From Haloterrigena alkaliphila (GTDB taxonomy: Archaea; Halobacteriota; Halobacteria; Halobacteriales; Natrialbaceae), in NCBI RefSeq assembly GCF_017352155.2, contig NZ_CP071462.1, forward strand, positions 806,001 through 870,000: a stretch of DNA of 64,000 nucleotides. The letters are read 5' to 3'. A program made the position numbers and the translations under genes. The notes under the pieces are model-generated. The model was not told where the DNA came from, ran no database searches, and was given only the letters and a program-made list of their open reading frames with translations. Shown here in pieces: positions 2,053-13,453 of this stretch (the stretch's first letter is position 1; each line of letters opens with the position of its first letter).

Positions 2053-2415
2053 TTAGTCGCCGTCCTCGTCGACGACGTCGATCGTCGTCTCCGTCTCCGT
2101 GGTCTTGGGCAGCGTCAACTCGAGGACGCCGCGTTCGACCGTCGCGTCCGCCTCGGAGCCCATCGCGTCCGCGGGCACGGGGAGGTCGACGTTCAGAAAC
2201 AGCGTGCGGTTCTCCTCGAGGTAGTGGTAGTCGCCGGCGGGATCCTTCTCGCGGTGGGCGTCGATGGAGATCCGATCGTTCTCGACGGAGAGTTCGATCG
2301 ACTCGGCGGTAACGCCGGGGACGTCGAGGACGAGCAGGTAGGCGTCGTCGCTTTCGAGCAGATCGAAGAAGACGTCCGCCGAGAGGTCCCGTAGTGCGTC
2401 ACGGAGCGCTGGCAT
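2053..2415 (-). CDS. hsp20: Hsp20/alpha-crystallin small heat shock protein
   Basis: 120 residues from ATG at 2415. The central alpha-crystallin beta-sandwich is recognisable: YLLVLDVPGVTAESIELSVE, a short loop with HREKD, then ENRTLFLNVDLP and the closing ERGVLELTLPK. The usual C-terminal I-x-I anchor is not clear; the tail is acidic (DVVDEDGD). Small heat shock proteins hold unfolding proteins in oligomeric shells without ATP. The gene lies in tandem with the downstream ABC1-kinase gene, whose probable start is only a few nucleotides away (2036-2045), so co-transcription is likely. A much longer open frame covering the region is a by-product of high GC. Confidence 0.85.
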   Translation of the reverse strand: MPALRDALRDLSADVFFDLLESDDAYLLVLDVPGVTAESIELSVENDRISIDAHREKDPAGDYHYLEENRTLFLNVDLPVPADAMGSEADATVERGVLELTLPKTTETETTIDVVDEDGD

Positions 2416-5087: not shown

Positions 5088-6221
5088 TCAGTCCGATCGT
5101 AGCGCGAGTCGAACGGCGTCGGCGAGCGCGTTCACGCGGGCGACGTGCTCGTAGGAGCCGTCGCGGACCCCGTTCGTGACGTACGAGAAGCCGACGTTCT
5201 CGGCGGGATCGGCCCAGCCGACGCTGCTGCCGAGCCCGGCGTGGCCGAACACCCGTTCGGGCGAGAGCGTCCCGTAGGGTGCGACCGTCGTCCCGCCCTT
5301 CCAGAAGCCCAGCGCGAACCGGCCTTCGCGGCCGATCGTTCCGTCGGCGTCCGTCTCGGCCTGGACCCTCGTCATCCGGTCGACGGTCTCTTCCGAGAGG
5401 ACGCGAGTGCCCTCGAGTTCGCCGCCGTTGGCCAGACAGGCGTAGAAGCGGGCCATGTCGCCGGCGGTCCCGATGCCGTTGGCGGCGGGGATGACCGCCC
5501 GGTGGATCTCCTCGCTGTTGAACGGCGCGGCGACCTCGGTGTGATCGCCGAGACCCTCGCCGGGGTCGCGACAGCGGTCGAACTCCTCGAAGGCGACCAG
5601 CGTCGCCACGTCGTCGTCCTCGTCGTCCCGGAGGCCGATCCCGGTGTCGTCCATCCCGAGCGGGTCGAAGACGCGCTCCGCGACGGCCTCCTCGATCGGC
5701 GTCCCCGACGCGCGGCGGACGAGTTCGCCGACCAGCCAGCCGAACGTGAGCGCGTGGTACGCGGGCGTCTCGCCCGGCGCGAAGTTCGGCTCCATCGACT
5801 CGAGGTGCTCGACGACGGCGTCCCAGTCGCCCCAGAGGTCGGGCCGGTCGTCGATCTCGCCGCGGTTGAGTCCGGCCGTGTGGCTGAGCACCTGCCGGAC
5901 GGTGATTTCGGCTTTCTCCGTGCCCTCGTCTGCGAACTCCGGCCAGTGATCGACGACCCGGTCGCCGTACTCGAGTTTCCCTTCATCGACCAGCGTGTGC
6001 AGCGTGACGGCCGCGTACGGCTTCGTGCTCGAGAACAGCAGGTGACGCGTCTCCGGCGTCTCCTGTGGACCCTCGGGCGCCTCGACGCCGCCGGCGAGGT
6101 CGAGCGCCCGCTCGCCGTCGACGTAGACCGCTAACTGCGCCCCGTGGTGGAGGCCGACCTCGAGGTGACGGTCGAAGAGATCAGCGATGCGCTCCCGATC
6201 CGAATCGGCAAGTCGTGTCAT
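5088..6221 (-). CDS. Serine hydrolase of the beta-lactamase/esterase (class C-like) family
   Basis: 377 residues from ATG at 6221. The SxxK catalytic motif is SSTK at 64-67, in the usual context HLLFSSTKPYAAVTLHTLVDEGKL. The position of the YxN motif reads YHALTFGWLVGEL, as in esterase-like members. A late motif FGHAGLGSSVGWADP matches the H-x-G region. No signal peptide is visible, so it is probably cytoplasmic. These enzymes are mostly esterases or peptidases rather than antibiotic hydrolases. It converges with the small membrane gene, and its upstream region holds the hairpin array and then the divergent dps operon. Confidence 0.88.
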   Translation of the reverse strand: MTRLADSDRERIADLFDRHLEVGLHHGAQLAVYVDGERALDLAGGVEAPEGPQETPETRHLLFSSTKPYAAVTLHTLVDEGKLEYGDRVVDHWPEFADEGTEKAEITVRQVLSHTAGLNRGEIDDRPDLWGDWDAVVEHLESMEPNFAPGETPAYHALTFGWLVGELVRRASGTPIEEAVAERVFDPLGMDDTGIGLRDDEDDDVATLVAFEEFDRCRDPGEGLGDHTEVAAPFNSEEIHRAVIPAANGIGTAGDMARFYACLANGGELEGTRVLSEETVDRMTRVQAETDADGTIGREGRFALGFWKGGTTVAPYGTLSPERVFGHAGLGSSVGWADPAENVGFSYVTNGVRDGSYEHVARVNALADAVRLALRSD

Positions 6222-6333
6222 ACCACACGAATCCCCGGGGAGGCTTGTAATCGTTCCGCCACGAACTTTTTCCGCCTCGGGTTCGCCACGGCGAACCACT
6301 CTCTGTTCGCGGACGGAGTCCGCTCACACGACT

Positions 6334-6425
6334 CGAGGGACGCGGAGCGTCCCTCGCTGGGCGCAAAAACGCCCTCAGAAATCGAAGATTTCTGACGGGT
6401 CCGCGAGAGCGACGCTCTCGCGGAC
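6334..6425. repeat. Array of three perfect short-loop hairpins
   Basis: Three inverted repeats follow each other, each with a 3-base loop: CGAGGGACGC/GGA at 6334-6356 (10-bp stem), TCAGAAATC/GAA at 6375-6395 (9-bp stem) and GTCCGCGAGAGC/GAC at 6399-6425 (12-bp stem). They lie in the gene-free stretch 6222-6609 between the serine hydrolase start and dpsA. The stems differ in sequence but share the architecture. The rest of that stretch holds further short imperfect palindromes and the dpsA control region. No convincing gene is present. Confidence 0.75.
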
Positions 6426-6543
6426 TTCGATGAAAAAGGCCGACTGCTCGGCCTCGGCGTCGGTGAACCGCTCGCTTCGTTCGCGGATGCTAGAAGCGTT
6501 CTATGCGTATGGATACTGATGGGACTGAATCGACGGAATGAAG

Positions 6544-6559
6544 TTTAGGTCCGCCGAAA
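6544..6559. promoter_or_regulatory. DtxR-type operator-like palindrome upstream of dpsA
   Basis: TTTAGG-TCCG-CCGAAA is a 6-4-6 inverted repeat with one mismatch. It resembles the TTAGG...CCTAA half-sites bound by DtxR/Idr iron-dependent regulators, and sits 20 bp upstream of the TATA box of dpsA, an iron-storage gene. The resemblance is visible; control by iron is inference. Confidence 0.4.
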
Positions 6560-6578
6560 ATGTGTCCCACCTGAAAGG

Positions 6579-6584
6579 TATAAA
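6579..6584 (+). promoter_or_regulatory. TATA box of the dps operon
   Basis: TATAAA at 6579-6584 in the context GAAAGGTATAAAGGTG, 26-31 nt upstream of the dpsA ATG at 6610. The purine-rich GAAAGG just before it fits a BRE. The spacing suggests a leaderless mRNA beginning at or next to the ATG. Confidence 0.75.
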
Positions 6585-6609
6585 GGTGTCGAGCGACTAT
6601 CCCACTGCG

Positions 6610-7158
6610 ATGAGTACCCAAGAGACGACCGTCCGTCAACAGGCCGGCACCGTCGACGAAAACGCGCTCCGGCTCGAGCAGGACAAAGCCGAGCAGATCG
6701 TCGAGGCGCTGAACTCCGAACTCGCGAACTCGTACGTCCTCTACCACCAGCTCAAGAAACACCACTGGGTGGTCGAAGGTGCAGAGTTCTTGCCCCTCCA
6801 CGAGTTCCTCGAGGAAGCCTACGAACACGTCGAAAAGGGCGCCGACGAGATCGCCGAGCGCGCCCAGGCGCTGGGGGGCGTCCCCGTCTCCGGACCGACC
6901 AACCTCGAGGAGCGCGCCACCGTCGAATTCGAGGGCGAAGACGTCTACGACGTCCGCACGATGTTCGAGAACGACCTCGAGATGTACGGCGACATCGTCG
7001 AGTCGATGCGCGGCAGCATCGAACTCGCCGAGAACCTCGGCGATCACGCGACCGGCGAACTGCTGCGCGAGATCCTCGTCACGCTCGAGGAAGACGGCCA
7101 CCACTTCGAACACTACCTCGAAGACGACACGCTCGTCCTCGAAGAGGCCACTCACTGA
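6610..7158 (+). CDS. dpsA: DpsA ferritin-like iron-storage/DNA-protection protein
   Basis: 182 residues, the length of the characterised Halobacterium DpsA. Dps proteins form hollow 12-mers that oxidise Fe(II) and store it, protecting DNA against peroxide. The inter-subunit ferroxidase ligands are all present: H52 (in KKHHW), H64 (PLHEFLEE), E68, D79 and E83 (ADEIAERAQALGG). The N-terminal tail is short and the C-terminus acidic. It heads a three-gene series: the next Dps gene starts 13 nt downstream. It has a textbook TATA box and an iron-regulator-like palindrome upstream. Confidence 0.95.
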   Translation: MSTQETTVRQQAGTVDENALRLEQDKAEQIVEALNSELANSYVLYHQLKKHHWVVEGAEFLPLHEFLEEAYEHVEKGADEIAERAQALGGVPVSGPTNLEERATVEFEGEDVYDVRTMFENDLEMYGDIVESMRGSIELAENLGDHATGELLREILVTLEEDGHHFEHYLEDDTLVLEEATH

Positions 7159-7171
7159 ACGGGTGACCTGA

Positions 7172-7753
7172 ATGGCACAGAAACAAGGGCGCCTCGTTCG
7201 GGAGCCCGAGACGGGCGAGCGACGGCAAGAGTGGGGCACCATCGCGGCGAACGAACTCCGGATCGACCGCGCCGACGCCGAGGCGATCGTCGACGCCCTG
7301 AGCGTCGACCACGCCGGATCGTTCAACCTGTTCTACCTGCTTCGCAAGCATTACTGGACCGCTGCGGGGGCCGAACACGAGTCGGTCGCTGACTTCCTCG
7401 AGGACGCCTACAAGCGCGTGCGCGAGATCAACGACGACCTCGCGATTCGGATCGTCGAGCTCGGGGGGATTCCGCCAAATACGCCGTCGACGCTGCAGGA
7501 ACGGGCCGACGTCCACCTCGAGGCCGAGGATCTCTACGACCTGCGGACCTCCCTGGACGGTGACCTCGAGGGGTACGCGACCCTGATCGTCAGTCTGCGC
7601 GACCACATCGCGCTCGCGGAAGAACGGGGCGATCCGGGCACGGCCGAACTGCTCCGAAACCACCTCGAAGCCCTCGAAGAAGACGCCCACGTCATCGAGC
7701 AACTACTCGAGGATGAGACGCTCGTTCGAGCGGAGGTGCTGCGGGACCGATGA
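7172..7753 (+). CDS. Dps-like protein 2 with degenerate ferroxidase site
   Basis: 193 residues, colinear with DpsA through the four-helix bundle (LRKHYWTAAGAEHESVADFL, then the helix ending AIRIVELGG). Against DpsA without gaps in this block, three of five ferroxidase ligands are changed: H52 is Y61, H64 is A73 and E83 is I92; E77 and D88 are kept. It should fold as a ferritin-like bundle but probably cannot oxidise iron at the classical site. It may co-assemble with DpsA or bind another ligand. It lies 13 nt after dpsA and overlaps the next gene by ATGA (7750-7753), implying translational coupling. Confidence 0.88.
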   Translation: MAQKQGRLVREPETGERRQEWGTIAANELRIDRADAEAIVDALSVDHAGSFNLFYLLRKHYWTAAGAEHESVADFLEDAYKRVREINDDLAIRIVELGGIPPNTPSTLQERADVHLEAEDLYDLRTSLDGDLEGYATLIVSLRDHIALAEERGDPGTAELLRNHLEALEEDAHVIEQLLEDETLVRAEVLRDR

Positions 7754-8319
7754 CGAGTACACCACACCTTCGACGCCCCGACCCGTCTCACGTCCGGCAA
7801 GAGTGGGGGACGGTAGCCGACAATGCGCTCCGTCTCGAACGGGACGTGGCTGAACGGCTGGTCACAGCCCTGAACAGCGAAATATCCGGGCTGTATATCC
7901 TCTTCAATCAGGTGCGCAAGCATTACTGGCTCGCCGAAGGGGCCGAATTGGAGCCACTCAGAGAGTTCCTCGAAGATGCTGCCGACCGGCTCACGGAGAT
8001 GACCGACGACATCGCCATTCGGATCACCGCGCTCGGCGGCGTTCCGGCCTGTGGGCCGATGGGTATCCGCCAGCACGCGCCGATAGTCATCGAAGACGCC
8101 CACCACTACGATATCCGCTCGTCGCTCGAGCGTGACCTCGACGGGTACGCGACGCTCGCGGTGCAGTGGCGTGAGCATATCGAACTGGCGGACCGGGTCG
8201 GCGATAGGGCGACGAACGAACTCCTGCGCCGCCATCTGAAGACACTCGAGGAGGACGCGCACGTCCTCGATCGATACCTCGCCGACGAGACGCTCGTGCT
8301 GCGCGACGCGACCCGCTGA
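7750..8319 (+). CDS. Dps-like protein 3 with degenerate ferroxidase site
   Basis: 189 residues, closest to the preceding paralogue (shared HYW, FLEDA, DDIAIRI). The same three ferroxidase ligands are lost: the DpsA H52 position is Y59, H64 is R71 and E83 is I90, whereas E75 and D86 remain. Both paralogues carry a conserved N-terminal RQEWGT(I/V)A segment not seen in DpsA. The start ATG overlaps the stop of the upstream gene. The shared substitutions imply that the duplication came after, or was followed by, loss of iron oxidation and selection for a common new property. Confidence 0.88.
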   Translation: MTSTPHLRRPDPSHVRQEWGTVADNALRLERDVAERLVTALNSEISGLYILFNQVRKHYWLAEGAELEPLREFLEDAADRLTEMTDDIAIRITALGGVPACGPMGIRQHAPIVIEDAHHYDIRSSLERDLDGYATLAVQWREHIELADRVGDRATNELLRRHLKTLEEDAHVLDRYLADETLVLRDATR

Positions 8320-8690: not shown

Positions 8691-8999
8691 ATGTCCGCGT
8701 TCGGTGGCGCCGAAACGACCACGTTCCCCTTCCCGACTCGAGTGCTGTCCGACCGTGTCGACGACTGCGTCCGAGTCGTCGTCGACGTCTCGCCCGCCGC
8801 AGTCGACGATCTCACCGTCGAAGCGGGGACGACTCGAGTCCGGATCGAGATCGATCGCGACGGCGAGCGCTACGCGCGCGTCTTCTCGCCGCTGCCGTCG
8901 CTCCCCCCGCGGCGGGGGTTCGGCGACGACCGCAGCGCCGTCTACAACAACGGCGTCCTGACGGTCTCGCTCGAGACGACGCGCCGCCGCCGGCGCTAA
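8691..8999 (+). CDS. Small Hsp20-like protein (102 aa), function unknown
   Basis: ATG at 8691 gives 102 residues. The middle and end resemble a minimal alpha-crystallin beta-sandwich: VDDCVRVVVDVSPAAVDDLT, VRIEIDRDGERYARVF and the closing strand NNGVLTVSLET, followed by a basic tail (RRRRR). The usual G-x-L motif of Hsp20 is present as GVLTVSL. It could be a divergent small heat shock protein or a haloarchaeal family of that fold. No operon partner is evident; the next gene starts 258 nt downstream. Confidence 0.7.
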   Translation: MSAFGGAETTTFPFPTRVLSDRVDDCVRVVVDVSPAAVDDLTVEAGTTRVRIEIDRDGERYARVFSPLPSLPPRRGFGDDRSAVYNNGVLTVSLETTRRRRR

Positions 9000-10810: not shown

Positions 10811-13453
10811 GTGAGCGAACAGCGAACCGAGCGCGAGCACTGTCGCCTGTGCGGGACGGCCGTCGGCGAGTCAGCCGGCGAGACGGTGGCGGACTCGGGA
10901 GACGGTCCGTTCTGCTCGAGCGGGTGCCGGGAGATCGCCGCGGAACTCGGCGTCGGCGCAGAATTCGGCGATGGAACGGACTCGGGCGACGACGCAGACG
11001 TGGGCGACGGCGCGGACGATGGCGACGCGGACGCCAGAGCGCCAGGCGTAGACGACCGGCCGGCGGTGGAGCGGCCCGAGGGCTACGAACGGACGTTCTT
11101 CCGGATCGACGGCATGCACTCGGCGCTCTGCGAGTCGTACCTCGAGTCGGTCGCCGAGGGCCGCGACGGCGTCGCGGACGCGGCCGCGAGTTACGTCACC
11201 GAGACGGTCCGGGTCGATCACGACCCGGATCGGATCTCGGCCGACGAACTCGAGAACGCCCTGTCGACGACCGGGTACACGGCCTACCGCCGCGAGGCGG
11301 CCGCCGGGGAGAGCGACGCGACCGAGGAGAGCACGACGCGCCGGTCGCGGGAGATGAAGGGCGTGCGAAAGCGCCGCGCGGAGAACGTCCTCGAGGTGCG
11401 CTACATCGTCGGAATCGTCTTCGGTTCGTTCCTGCTGTTGCCGTACGTCACGACGTTCTACCCGATGCAGGTCGCCGACTACACCGACTACTGGCTCTTC
11501 GAGCAGTACGCCCAGCAGTTCGGCGGGTTCGACGTCGGCCTCGTCCTGCCGCTGTACTTCGGGCTGACCGGCGCCATCCTCTACCTGACCGGGCGCCCGC
11601 TCCTGCGCGGCGCGTACGTAAGCCTGAAGCTCCGGGAGCCGAGCACCCACCTGCTCGCGACGCTGACGATCGTGGCCGCCTACTGTTACGGAACGATCGC
11701 GTTCGTCAGCGGAAGCGTCGACATCTACTACGACCTGACGATCCTCGTCGCCGCGGTCGTGATGACGGCGATCTTCTACGAGGAGTCGGTCAAACGCGAC
11801 GCCCTGAACCGGCTGACCGACCTCACGATCTCGCAGGTCGGGACGGCCCGAGTGCTCGAGGCCGACGGCGAGACGCTGGAGGTGCCGGTCGCCGAGGTCG
11901 CGGCCGACGACCGTCTGCTCGTCCGCGCGGGCGAGCGCGTTCCGGTCGACGGCCGCCTCGCGGAGGGGGCGTGTACGGTCGACGAGGCGGTTCTCACCGG
12001 CGAGTCGCTGCCGGTCTCGAAGACCGCCGGCGACCCCCTGATCGGCGGCTCGGTCGTCACCGACGGCGCCGCGGTCGTCGCGGCCGACGACGAGACGACC
12101 AGCAGCATCGATCGGCTGACTCGGTCCGTCTGGAACCTCCAGAGCGCCGACCACGGCGTCCACCGCCGGGCCGACGCGCTCGCCGGAACCCTCCTTCCGG
12201 TCGTCGTCGCGGCCGCCGTCATCGCCGGGATTGCCGCCGCCCTGCTGGGTGCGGGTCCGGCGGATACCGCGAGAGCTGTCCTCCTGGCCCTCGTCGCCGC
12301 GAGTCCGTGGGCGCTCGCGTTCGCCACGCCGATGTCGATCGCCTCGAGCATCCGCGAGGGCCTCGAACGCGGCATCGTCGTCTTCGACGAGAGCGTCTTC
12401 GAGCGCCTGCGCGAGATCGACGTCGTCGTCTTCGACAAGACGGGGACGCTCACGACCGGCGCGATGACCGTCCTCGAGGCCGACGCCCCCGAGGACCTGC
12501 TGCGAGCGGCCGCCGCGGTCGAGCGCCGCGGGGCGCACCCGGCGGCCGCCGCGATCGCCGAGGCCTTCGGCGACTCGGAATCGACCGAGACCGCCGACGC
12601 GAATCGGCCCGACGGCGGCGTCACCGACGAACCCTCGGCGGGGGGCGACGACGCGGAATCCGGCCGCGTCCGGGAGTTCGAGCGACACGCCACCGGCGTC
12701 GAAGGCCTTTATCAGACTCCGTCTGATGGGCCGTCAGAACGCGGGCGTTCTGACGAGGTCGTCGGCGGCCGGCGGATCCTCGTCGGTCACCCCGACCTCT
12801 TCGCCGAACGGGGGTGGTCGCTCGAGGACGGACTCGAGACGCGAGTCGACGACGCGCGCGAGGCCGGACACCTCCCCGTGGTCGTCGGCCGGGACGGTCG
12901 CGCGGAGGGGATCGTCGTGGTCGGCGACGAGTCCCGATCCGAGTGGGCGGACACGGTCGCGCAACTGGACGCGAACGGCGTCGACGTCGTGGTACTCACC
13001 GGGGACGACGACTCGGCGGCGGCCCGCTTCCGGGAGCATCCGGGCGTGTCGCGGGTCTTCGCGAACGTCCCGCCCGCGGGGAAGACCGCGGCGATCCGGC
13101 GGCTGTGCGCCGACGGGCGCGTGGCGATGGTCGGCGACGGGACCAACGACGCGCCGGCGCTGGCGGCGGCCGACCTCGGCATCTCGCTGGGCGGCGGGAC
13201 GGCGCTGGCCGCCGACGCGGCCGACCTCGCGATCGTCGAGGACGACCTCGCGGCGGTCGAACGGGCGTTCGCGCTCGCGCGCGCCGCCCGCGAACGGATC
13301 GTTCAGAACCTCGCCCTCGCGTTCGGGTACAACGCGATCGCCGTCCCCGTCGCGCTGGCCGGCCTGCTGAGTCCGGTAATTACGACCACCGCGCTGGTCG
13401 TCACGACGCTGCTGATCGCCGGGAACGCCTCGCGGTCGCTGCTCGAGGCGTAG
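10811..13453 (+). CDS. P1B-type (heavy-metal) P-type ATPase with N-terminal TRASH domain and SPW motif
   Basis: 880 residues from a GTG start. A Cys-rich TRASH-like metal sensor opens the protein (C11, C14, C35, C39), followed by an Asp-rich linker and a degenerate HMA domain (GMHSALC at 101-107, one Cys of the usual pair lost). The transporter core has TGES, phosphorylation motif DKTGTLT (D542), the HP of the N-domain (GAHPAA) and GDGTND (775-780). The transmembrane metal motif, CPC in copper pumps, reads S498-P499-W500. The TM8 region has TT where copper pumps have SS. The family is certain; the metal is not. A hairpin pair lies in frame at 12711-12753 (about residues 634-648). Confidence 0.92.
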   Translation: MSEQRTEREHCRLCGTAVGESAGETVADSGDGPFCSSGCREIAAELGVGAEFGDGTDSGDDADVGDGADDGDADARAPGVDDRPAVERPEGYERTFFRIDGMHSALCESYLESVAEGRDGVADAAASYVTETVRVDHDPDRISADELENALSTTGYTAYRREAAAGESDATEESTTRRSREMKGVRKRRAENVLEVRYIVGIVFGSFLLLPYVTTFYPMQVADYTDYWLFEQYAQQFGGFDVGLVLPLYFGLTGAILYLTGRPLLRGAYVSLKLREPSTHLLATLTIVAAYCYGTIAFVSGSVDIYYDLTILVAAVVMTAIFYEESVKRDALNRLTDLTISQVGTARVLEADGETLEVPVAEVAADDRLLVRAGERVPVDGRLAEGACTVDEAVLTGESLPVSKTAGDPLIGGSVVTDGAAVVAADDETTSSIDRLTRSVWNLQSADHGVHRRADALAGTLLPVVVAAAVIAGIAAALLGAGPADTARAVLLALVAASPWALAFATPMSIASSIREGLERGIVVFDESVFERLREIDVVVFDKTGTLTTGAMTVLEADAPEDLLRAAAAVERRGAHPAAAAIAEAFGDSESTETADANRPDGGVTDEPSAGGDDAESGRVREFERHATGVEGLYQTPSDGPSERGRSDEVVGGRRILVGHPDLFAERGWSLEDGLETRVDDAREAGHLPVVVGRDGRAEGIVVVGDESRSEWADTVAQLDANGVDVVVLTGDDDSAAARFREHPGVSRVFANVPPAGKTAAIRRLCADGRVAMVGDGTNDAPALAAADLGISLGGGTALAADAADLAIVEDDLAAVERAFALARAARERIVQNLALAFGYNAIAVPVALAGLLSPVITTTALVVTTLLIAGNASRSLLEA
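12711..12753. repeat. Two perfect hairpins inside the P-type ATPase gene
   Basis: ATCAGAC/TCC/GTCTGAT at 12711-12727 and TCAGAACGC/GG/GCGTTCTGA at 12734-12753. Their architecture matches the intergenic hairpin arrays at 6334-6425 and 32520-32690. They encode an extra Ser/Gly/Arg-rich loop (YQTPSDGPSERGRSDE) within the nucleotide-binding domain without breaking the frame. Confidence 0.7.

Follow-up and report, generated by a model that had tools for sequence, protein, structure and literature searches.

Haloterrigena alkaliphila carries three Dps genes in tandem, two of which encode proteins without the ferroxidase ligands, and the question raised by this locus is what these two proteins do. 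The genes occupy positions 6610 to 8319 of the 64,000-nucleotide stretch of DNA that was analyzed (here, the window), all on the forward strand; coordinates, spacing, and residues were checked against the sequence. A catalytic DpsA of 182 amino acids is encoded by gene A (6610 to 7158), followed by genes B (7172 to 7753; 193 amino acids) and C (7750 to 8319; 189 amino acids), whose products we call pseudo-Dps. The start of B lies 13 nt from the stop of A, and B and C overlap by ATGA, as described in an earlier sequence-only reading of this DNA, which had proposed that all three proteins are made together. Co-expression is well supported by the spacing in relatives, in which A and B are usually separated by −1 to 13 nt and B and C by −4 to +6 nt, with a distance of 361 nt in one species. 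A second, solitary DpsA gene is located elsewhere in the genome.

Dps fold and ferroxidase ligands

PF00210 recognizes A, B, and C alike, each with a score over its cut-off, and among solved structures Halobacterium salinarum DpsA (1moj) is the top match to all three, with E values of 1e-64, 2e-36, and 8e-40, respectively. An AlphaFold model, built for C alone (mean pLDDT 80), has helices at residues 31 to 61, 65 to 94, 102 to 109 (BC), 122 to 149, and 153 to 178, that is, a four-helix bundle with a short helix in the BC loop, as in Dps. This model superimposes on 1moj with a TM score of 0.83 at 43% identity, and its top Foldseek matches are all Dps proteins. The proposal that B and C retain the Dps fold is thus well supported. 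Both also exceed the curated cut-off (170 bits) of NF041388, the NCBIfam equivalog for haloarchaeal DpsA, with scores of 183.8 and 194.1, compared to 291.5 for A, and because this model takes them in, databases name B and C DpsA.

In 1moj numbering, used throughout, A possesses the canonical Dps ferroxidase ligands H52, H64, E68, D79, and E83, while the corresponding residues are Y52, A64, E68, D79, and I83 in B and Y52, R64, E68, D79, and I83 in C. The alignment with 1moj agrees with the sequence-only reading both on the ligand set of the first gene and on the loss of H52, H64, and E83 from the two others, with E68 and D79 retained; the N-terminal RQEWGT that it had found common to B and C is also present, where A has RQQAGT. 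Position 68 is not diagnostic as a ligand, since 1moj and 42% of haloarchaeal DpsA proteins have Gly there. Two further carboxylates, at positions 72 and 75, where 92% and 100% of A proteins, respectively, have E, are replaced as well, mostly by K/R and by R in B (K72 and R75 in the window) and by D and by T/S/A in C (D72 and T75 in the window). At position 165, the His that is found in 58% of A and reported to bind metal in H. salinarum DpsA (PMC7327923) has likewise been exchanged.

The same loss is found among orthologues. H52, H64, and E83 never occur together in 46 B or 46 C proteins, and none of the three is left in 37 of the 46 B and 44 of the 46 C; nine B keep E83 or H52 (one keeps both), and two C keep H52. 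Residue 64, Arg in the C of the window, varies among C orthologues (G, S, A, E, V, or R). Alternative ligands that rebuild a ferroxidase center, which would refute the sequence-only reading, are not provided by any Bfr-type set in B or C. The [E/D]xxH motif is absent from helix B in all 46 B and 48 C proteins, which excludes an intrasubunit center of the Bfr/DpsL type. The His-type ferroxidase site of cyanobacterial Dps, with His at the equivalents of H51, H63, H78, and H164 (PMC7327923), was also ruled out, as position 52 is rarely His (two B and two C), position 64 never is, and position 79 is Asp.

With these ligands gone, B and C would be unable to oxidize iron. The acidic iron-nucleating surface is probably lost too, since the summed charge at positions 64, 68, 72, 75, 79, and 83 is −4.5 per subunit in A, 0 in B, and −2.5 in C. 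Judged by their residues, B and C are Dps homologues that have the Dps fold and lack the catalytic ligands, not canonical ferroxidase Dps proteins, and the functional equivalence implied by NF041388 is contradicted for both of them by the missing ligands. Residues 94 to 104 of C (GGVPACGPMGIRQHAP in the window) form a near-invariant loop, CGPMGIRQHAP, unlike anything in A and B at this place; it is possibly an interface or a metal- or ligand-binding site.

Pairing, fusion, and descent of B and C

Clear orthologues of B were found in 20 of 125 Natrialbaceae genomes, and orthologues of C (over 200 bits) in 40 of 391 sampled genomes of Halobacteria. Strong B matches among 247 sampled genomes of the phylum were confined to the order to which the window belongs. 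B lies directly 5′ of C in all 40 C-bearing genomes, and the only unpaired copies are contig-end pieces and one fragment of 47 amino acids. A precedes the pair in 26 of 39 B-C loci (counted among our loci L089 to L128) and is not adjacent in the other 13, so that the conserved unit is the B-C pair and not the trio: the search for conserved three-gene sets that had been suggested for relatives found a strictly kept pair, to which A is only often joined. Every genome with B-C has DpsA elsewhere (at least three matches per genome), which says little because nearly all haloarchaea have DpsA (some Dps match was found in 375 of the 391 genomes).

B and C are fused into one open reading frame in Halogranum amylolyticum (396 amino acids) and in Halogranum rubrum (about 414 amino acids). 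Both halves match PF00210, they are joined by a linker of roughly 17 to 34 amino acids, and the fusion may represent a single event within Halogranum. At another locus (L114 of genome G001, positions 5447 to 7169), B runs past its usual end, C is broken about 600 nt further on, and the B protein groups with those of Halogranum; this locus is possibly a decayed B-C fusion.

No conserved neighborhood was found beyond the trio, as the flanks differ between genera. In the window, a heavy-metal P-type ATPase (HMA/E1-E2_ATPase; 10811 to 13453, forward strand) lies 2.5 kb 3′ of the trio, and in four Natronococcus loci (L044, L046, L047, and L054) genes for a DsbD-like membrane protein and then a related HMA ATPase come just 3′ of B-C. 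These ATPases possibly mark a metal-handling neighborhood, or their presence is a coincidence. An HSP20-family gene is located at 2053 to 2412 (reverse strand), and a 102-amino-acid open reading frame just 3′ of the trio (8691 to 8999, forward strand) has the look of a small heat-shock protein by eye, with no Pfam family matched. The trio is also carried by a Halarchaeum plasmid, on which all three genes are annotated as dpsA. A phage origin is disfavored, as C has no match in the phage collection.

In the phylogenetic tree, B and C form clades with SH-aLRT supports of 99 and 97 that are grouped together with a support of 100, although the root is unsure because the sole outgroup, chain 5hjf (Nostoc Dps4), is distant. 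As sister clades, B and C most likely inherited a single loss of the ligands that took place before they split, and independent loss of the same ligands in both need not be assumed. Among nine close relatives, dN/dS has medians of 0.07 (A), 0.17 (B), and 0.18 (C); all three genes are under purifying selection, which is somewhat weaker on B and C. Decay is seen in isolated cases only, namely, a frameshifted B (L104), the broken C of L114, and a B fragment in Halorubrum persicum (L058). Absence from relatives together with signs of decay, the other observation that would have refuted the sequence-only reading, is therefore not what the conserved and selected pair displays.

A putative iron-regulator operator

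Upstream of A we found a DtxR/IdeR-type palindrome, TTTAGGTCCGCCGAAA (6544 to 6559, forward strand), that begins 66 nt before the DpsA start; it is a new feature of the operon and its putative operator. Nothing else in the window matches TTTNGGN4CCNAAA (0.01 matches expected), and the palindrome has one mismatch to TTTAGGN4CCTAAA. Its sequence can be likened to the core of the DtxR/IdeR box TTAGGTTAGSCTAACCTAA (PMC10317159), and a TTAGG...CCTAA palindrome at the promoter, by which members of DtxR/IdeR regulons are recognized, is thus present at this position. The TATA box, TATAAAG (6579 to 6585, forward strand), follows the palindrome and lies 31 nt before the DpsA start, which fits a leaderless transcript and a start at 6610. 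An in-frame ATG at 6538 was ruled out as the DpsA start because it sits 5′ of both the operator and the TATA box. The host being archaeal, a sigma-70 promoter scan is not applicable.

Counted as present when at least 10 of its 12 fixed bases match, the palindrome occurs in 24 of 29 distinct upstream regions of A-B-C operons and in 6 of 18 from B-C operons without A, compared to about 2% of random 150-mers; binomial values for this enrichment are indicative only, since related sequences are not independent. The distance from the end of the palindrome to the TATA box is 19 to 22 nt in most relatives. With 12 of the 18 A-less regions lacking the palindrome and 13 of the 39 loci lacking A, neither mixing with A nor control by the palindrome's regulator would be universal. 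In Haloarcula-type B-C loci (L045, L051, and L097) the palindrome and TATA box are kept and a short ATG-initiated stretch precedes B, which resembles a remnant left when A was lost in place.

The 4.27-Mb genome contains 12 palindrome sites, and 5 of the other 11 lie directly before genes of iron-uptake type, read from 3-kb stretches around each site (SBP_bac_6, a FecCD permease, two Peripla_BP_2 proteins, and an ABC/TOBE ATPase). At some of these uptake genes the palindrome comes right after a TATA-like sequence. A site 3′ of the TATA box predicts repression, while the site 5′ of it at the Dps operon predicts activation by an iron-loaded regulator. Such an arrangement has precedents: IdeR boxes lie upstream at the activated bfrB and over the start at repressed genes, and IdeR activates bfrA/bfrB (PMC10317159); DtxR of Corynebacterium glutamicum activates dps and ftn (PMC1382209). 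H. salinarum DpsA was reported to be lower under iron deficiency (PMC3600143). A DtxR-family gene (PF01325 plus PF02742) is divergent beside the trio in Halorubrum sp. CBA1125 and Halopenitus persicus, and in another genome (G139) a DtxR-family gene is also divergent from it. The H. alkaliphila genome itself encodes at least four strong PF01325 proteins.

Proposed assembly of B and C and its implications

Strict pairing, the fused open reading frames, and complementary residues at positions 72 and 75 suggest that B and C form a heteromer. In the two-fold interface of Dps, ligands 64 and 68 meet 83 and 79, respectively, of the partner, so that helix B runs antiparallel with i + j = 147 and position 72 faces position 75. 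R75 is found in 45 of 46 B, and D72 in 44 of 46 C, which have a small residue at 75. A B:B dimer would bring like charges together and a B:C dimer would pair R75 with D72; the charge products in this register (2.4 for BB, 1.1 for CC, and 0.2 for BC), obtained from the register rule and not from coordinates, favor B:C in a suggestive way only, and other helix-B registers give mixed charge results. For the fused protein, AlphaFold gives a model with a pTM of 0.46, which does not show how the halves pack.

Taking these observations together, we lean slightly toward an iron-regulated operon that provides a B:C heteromer of ferroxidase-dead Dps subunits, most likely mixed with DpsA and less likely in a shell of its own. 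A DtxR/IdeR-family regulator would bind the palindrome 5′ of the TATA box and, in ample iron, turn the operon on; at uptake genes, the same kind of site 3′ of the TATA box would, from its position, bring about repression. The operon would yield catalytic DpsA together with co-translated B and C, which have the Dps fold and would not oxidize iron. B and C would pair across the two-fold, formerly ferroxidase, interface. Faces free of ferroxidase would arise from the resulting dimers, which would most likely sit as two-fold units beside A2 dimers in one 12-subunit shell and there adjust how many ferroxidase sites it has and how charged its cavity is; a separate B6C6 shell is less likely. The identity of the regulator, activation, the B:C dimer, and the mixed shell are the parts of this explanation that we infer. 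The evidence is stronger for the B:C heteromer than for mixing with A. A more specific version, in which neither B nor C is stable without the other and whole B:C dimers enter DpsA shells under iron control, the composition setting the ferroxidase sites per cage, is one that we put forward tentatively. Of what the sequence-only reading had suggested, co-expression and a retained fold with the canonical site lost both hold, and its mixed Dps shell is plausible; a DNA- or ligand-binding role apart from iron is weakened by an iron-type operator that also precedes some A-less B-C operons.

A version of that role is nevertheless the alternative to be taken most seriously, if an unlikely one: B and C could form their own ferroxidase-free heteromeric shell, or a smaller oligomer, and bind nucleic acid or some other anionic ligand in that form, with DpsA oxidizing iron separately. 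The mean net charge rises from −32 in A to −22 in B and −14 in C, the N-terminal tails, in which several Arg and a new Trp occur, are conserved and specific to each class, and a third of the loci have no A next to B-C. B and C are still net acidic, however, and have no DNA-binding motif apart from the tail, and the operator at A-B-C and some B-C operons speaks for iron. That same operator would suit weak or different metal sites, made up of D79 and class-specific His or Cys residues, which would turn B and C into subunits that store or sense iron or some other metal. D79 is kept in 98 to 100%, and candidate partners are H106 in B (91%) and C94, H102, and H111 in C (77%, 94%, and 75%), but these are not all universal and no ExxH-type or His-type ferroxidase set accompanies them, and we consider such sites improbable. 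The chance that B and C are simply redundant tandem duplicates on their way to being lost, expressed together by accident, appears very slim. Their patchy occurrence (20 of 125 Natrialbaceae), some broken copies, and a dN/dS about twice that of A could be read in this way, but the pair is shared by several families, its two clades are deep, its class-specific residues are invariant, dN/dS is still only 0.17 to 0.18, and pairing is strict to the point of fusion. Gene decay as the origin of B and C is thus disfavored and largely refuted by their conservation, selection, and pairing.

Catalytic and noncatalytic subunits are combined in one iron-handling system in human H/L ferritin, a 24-mer; its L chains carry nucleation carboxylates, which B and C have lost. 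DpsA and DpsB of Lactococcus lactis reportedly lack the usual ferroxidase center. They are likewise two Dps paralogues in one organism (Stillman 2005), and their N-terminal helices bind DNA, as cited by PMC13319912, but they are bacterial, lie outside the haloarchaeal clade, and are not known as an obligate pair or a fusion. The nearest working precedent is Bfr1/Bfr2 of Magnetospirillum gryphiswaldense, encoded by genes 11 nt apart, in which one ferroxidase-competent and one ferroxidase-mutated subunit form one heteromeric cage (PMC6529640). That cage is a 24-subunit heme bacterioferritin with an intrasubunit center and two genes, whereas three genes are present here and two different dead subunits apparently pair with each other. 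DpsL/thioferritin (PaDpsL; 2vzb and 8w1e) shares with B and C a Dps fold without the inter-subunit ferroxidase site; it has a Bfr-type center inside the bundle (PMC11150526), which B and C lack. H. salinarum DpsA (1moj/1tjo; NF041388) has the fold and family common to A, B, and C and the ligands kept by A, while B and C are without H52, H64, E83, and the 72/75 carboxylates and are paired and sometimes fused. Dps proteins are described as homododecamers in PMC5553809 and as all carrying ferroxidase centers in PMC13319912; in the literature searched, mostly outside subscription papers, we found no report of a heteromeric Dps, a ferroxidase-less Dps, or the haloarchaeal B-C pair.

The B-C pair is hidden in public records under the name DpsA. 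This amounts to a systematic annotation error, by which counts of haloarchaeal DpsA genes take in proteins that are probably unable to oxidize iron. For structural studies, the fused B:C protein is a ready-made construct. If our reading is correct, dead Dps subunits, conserved as a pair and regulated by iron, would give the mini-ferritins their counterpart to the mixed bacterioferritin and to H/L ferritin, and the haloarchaea would provide a natural separation of shell from catalysis.
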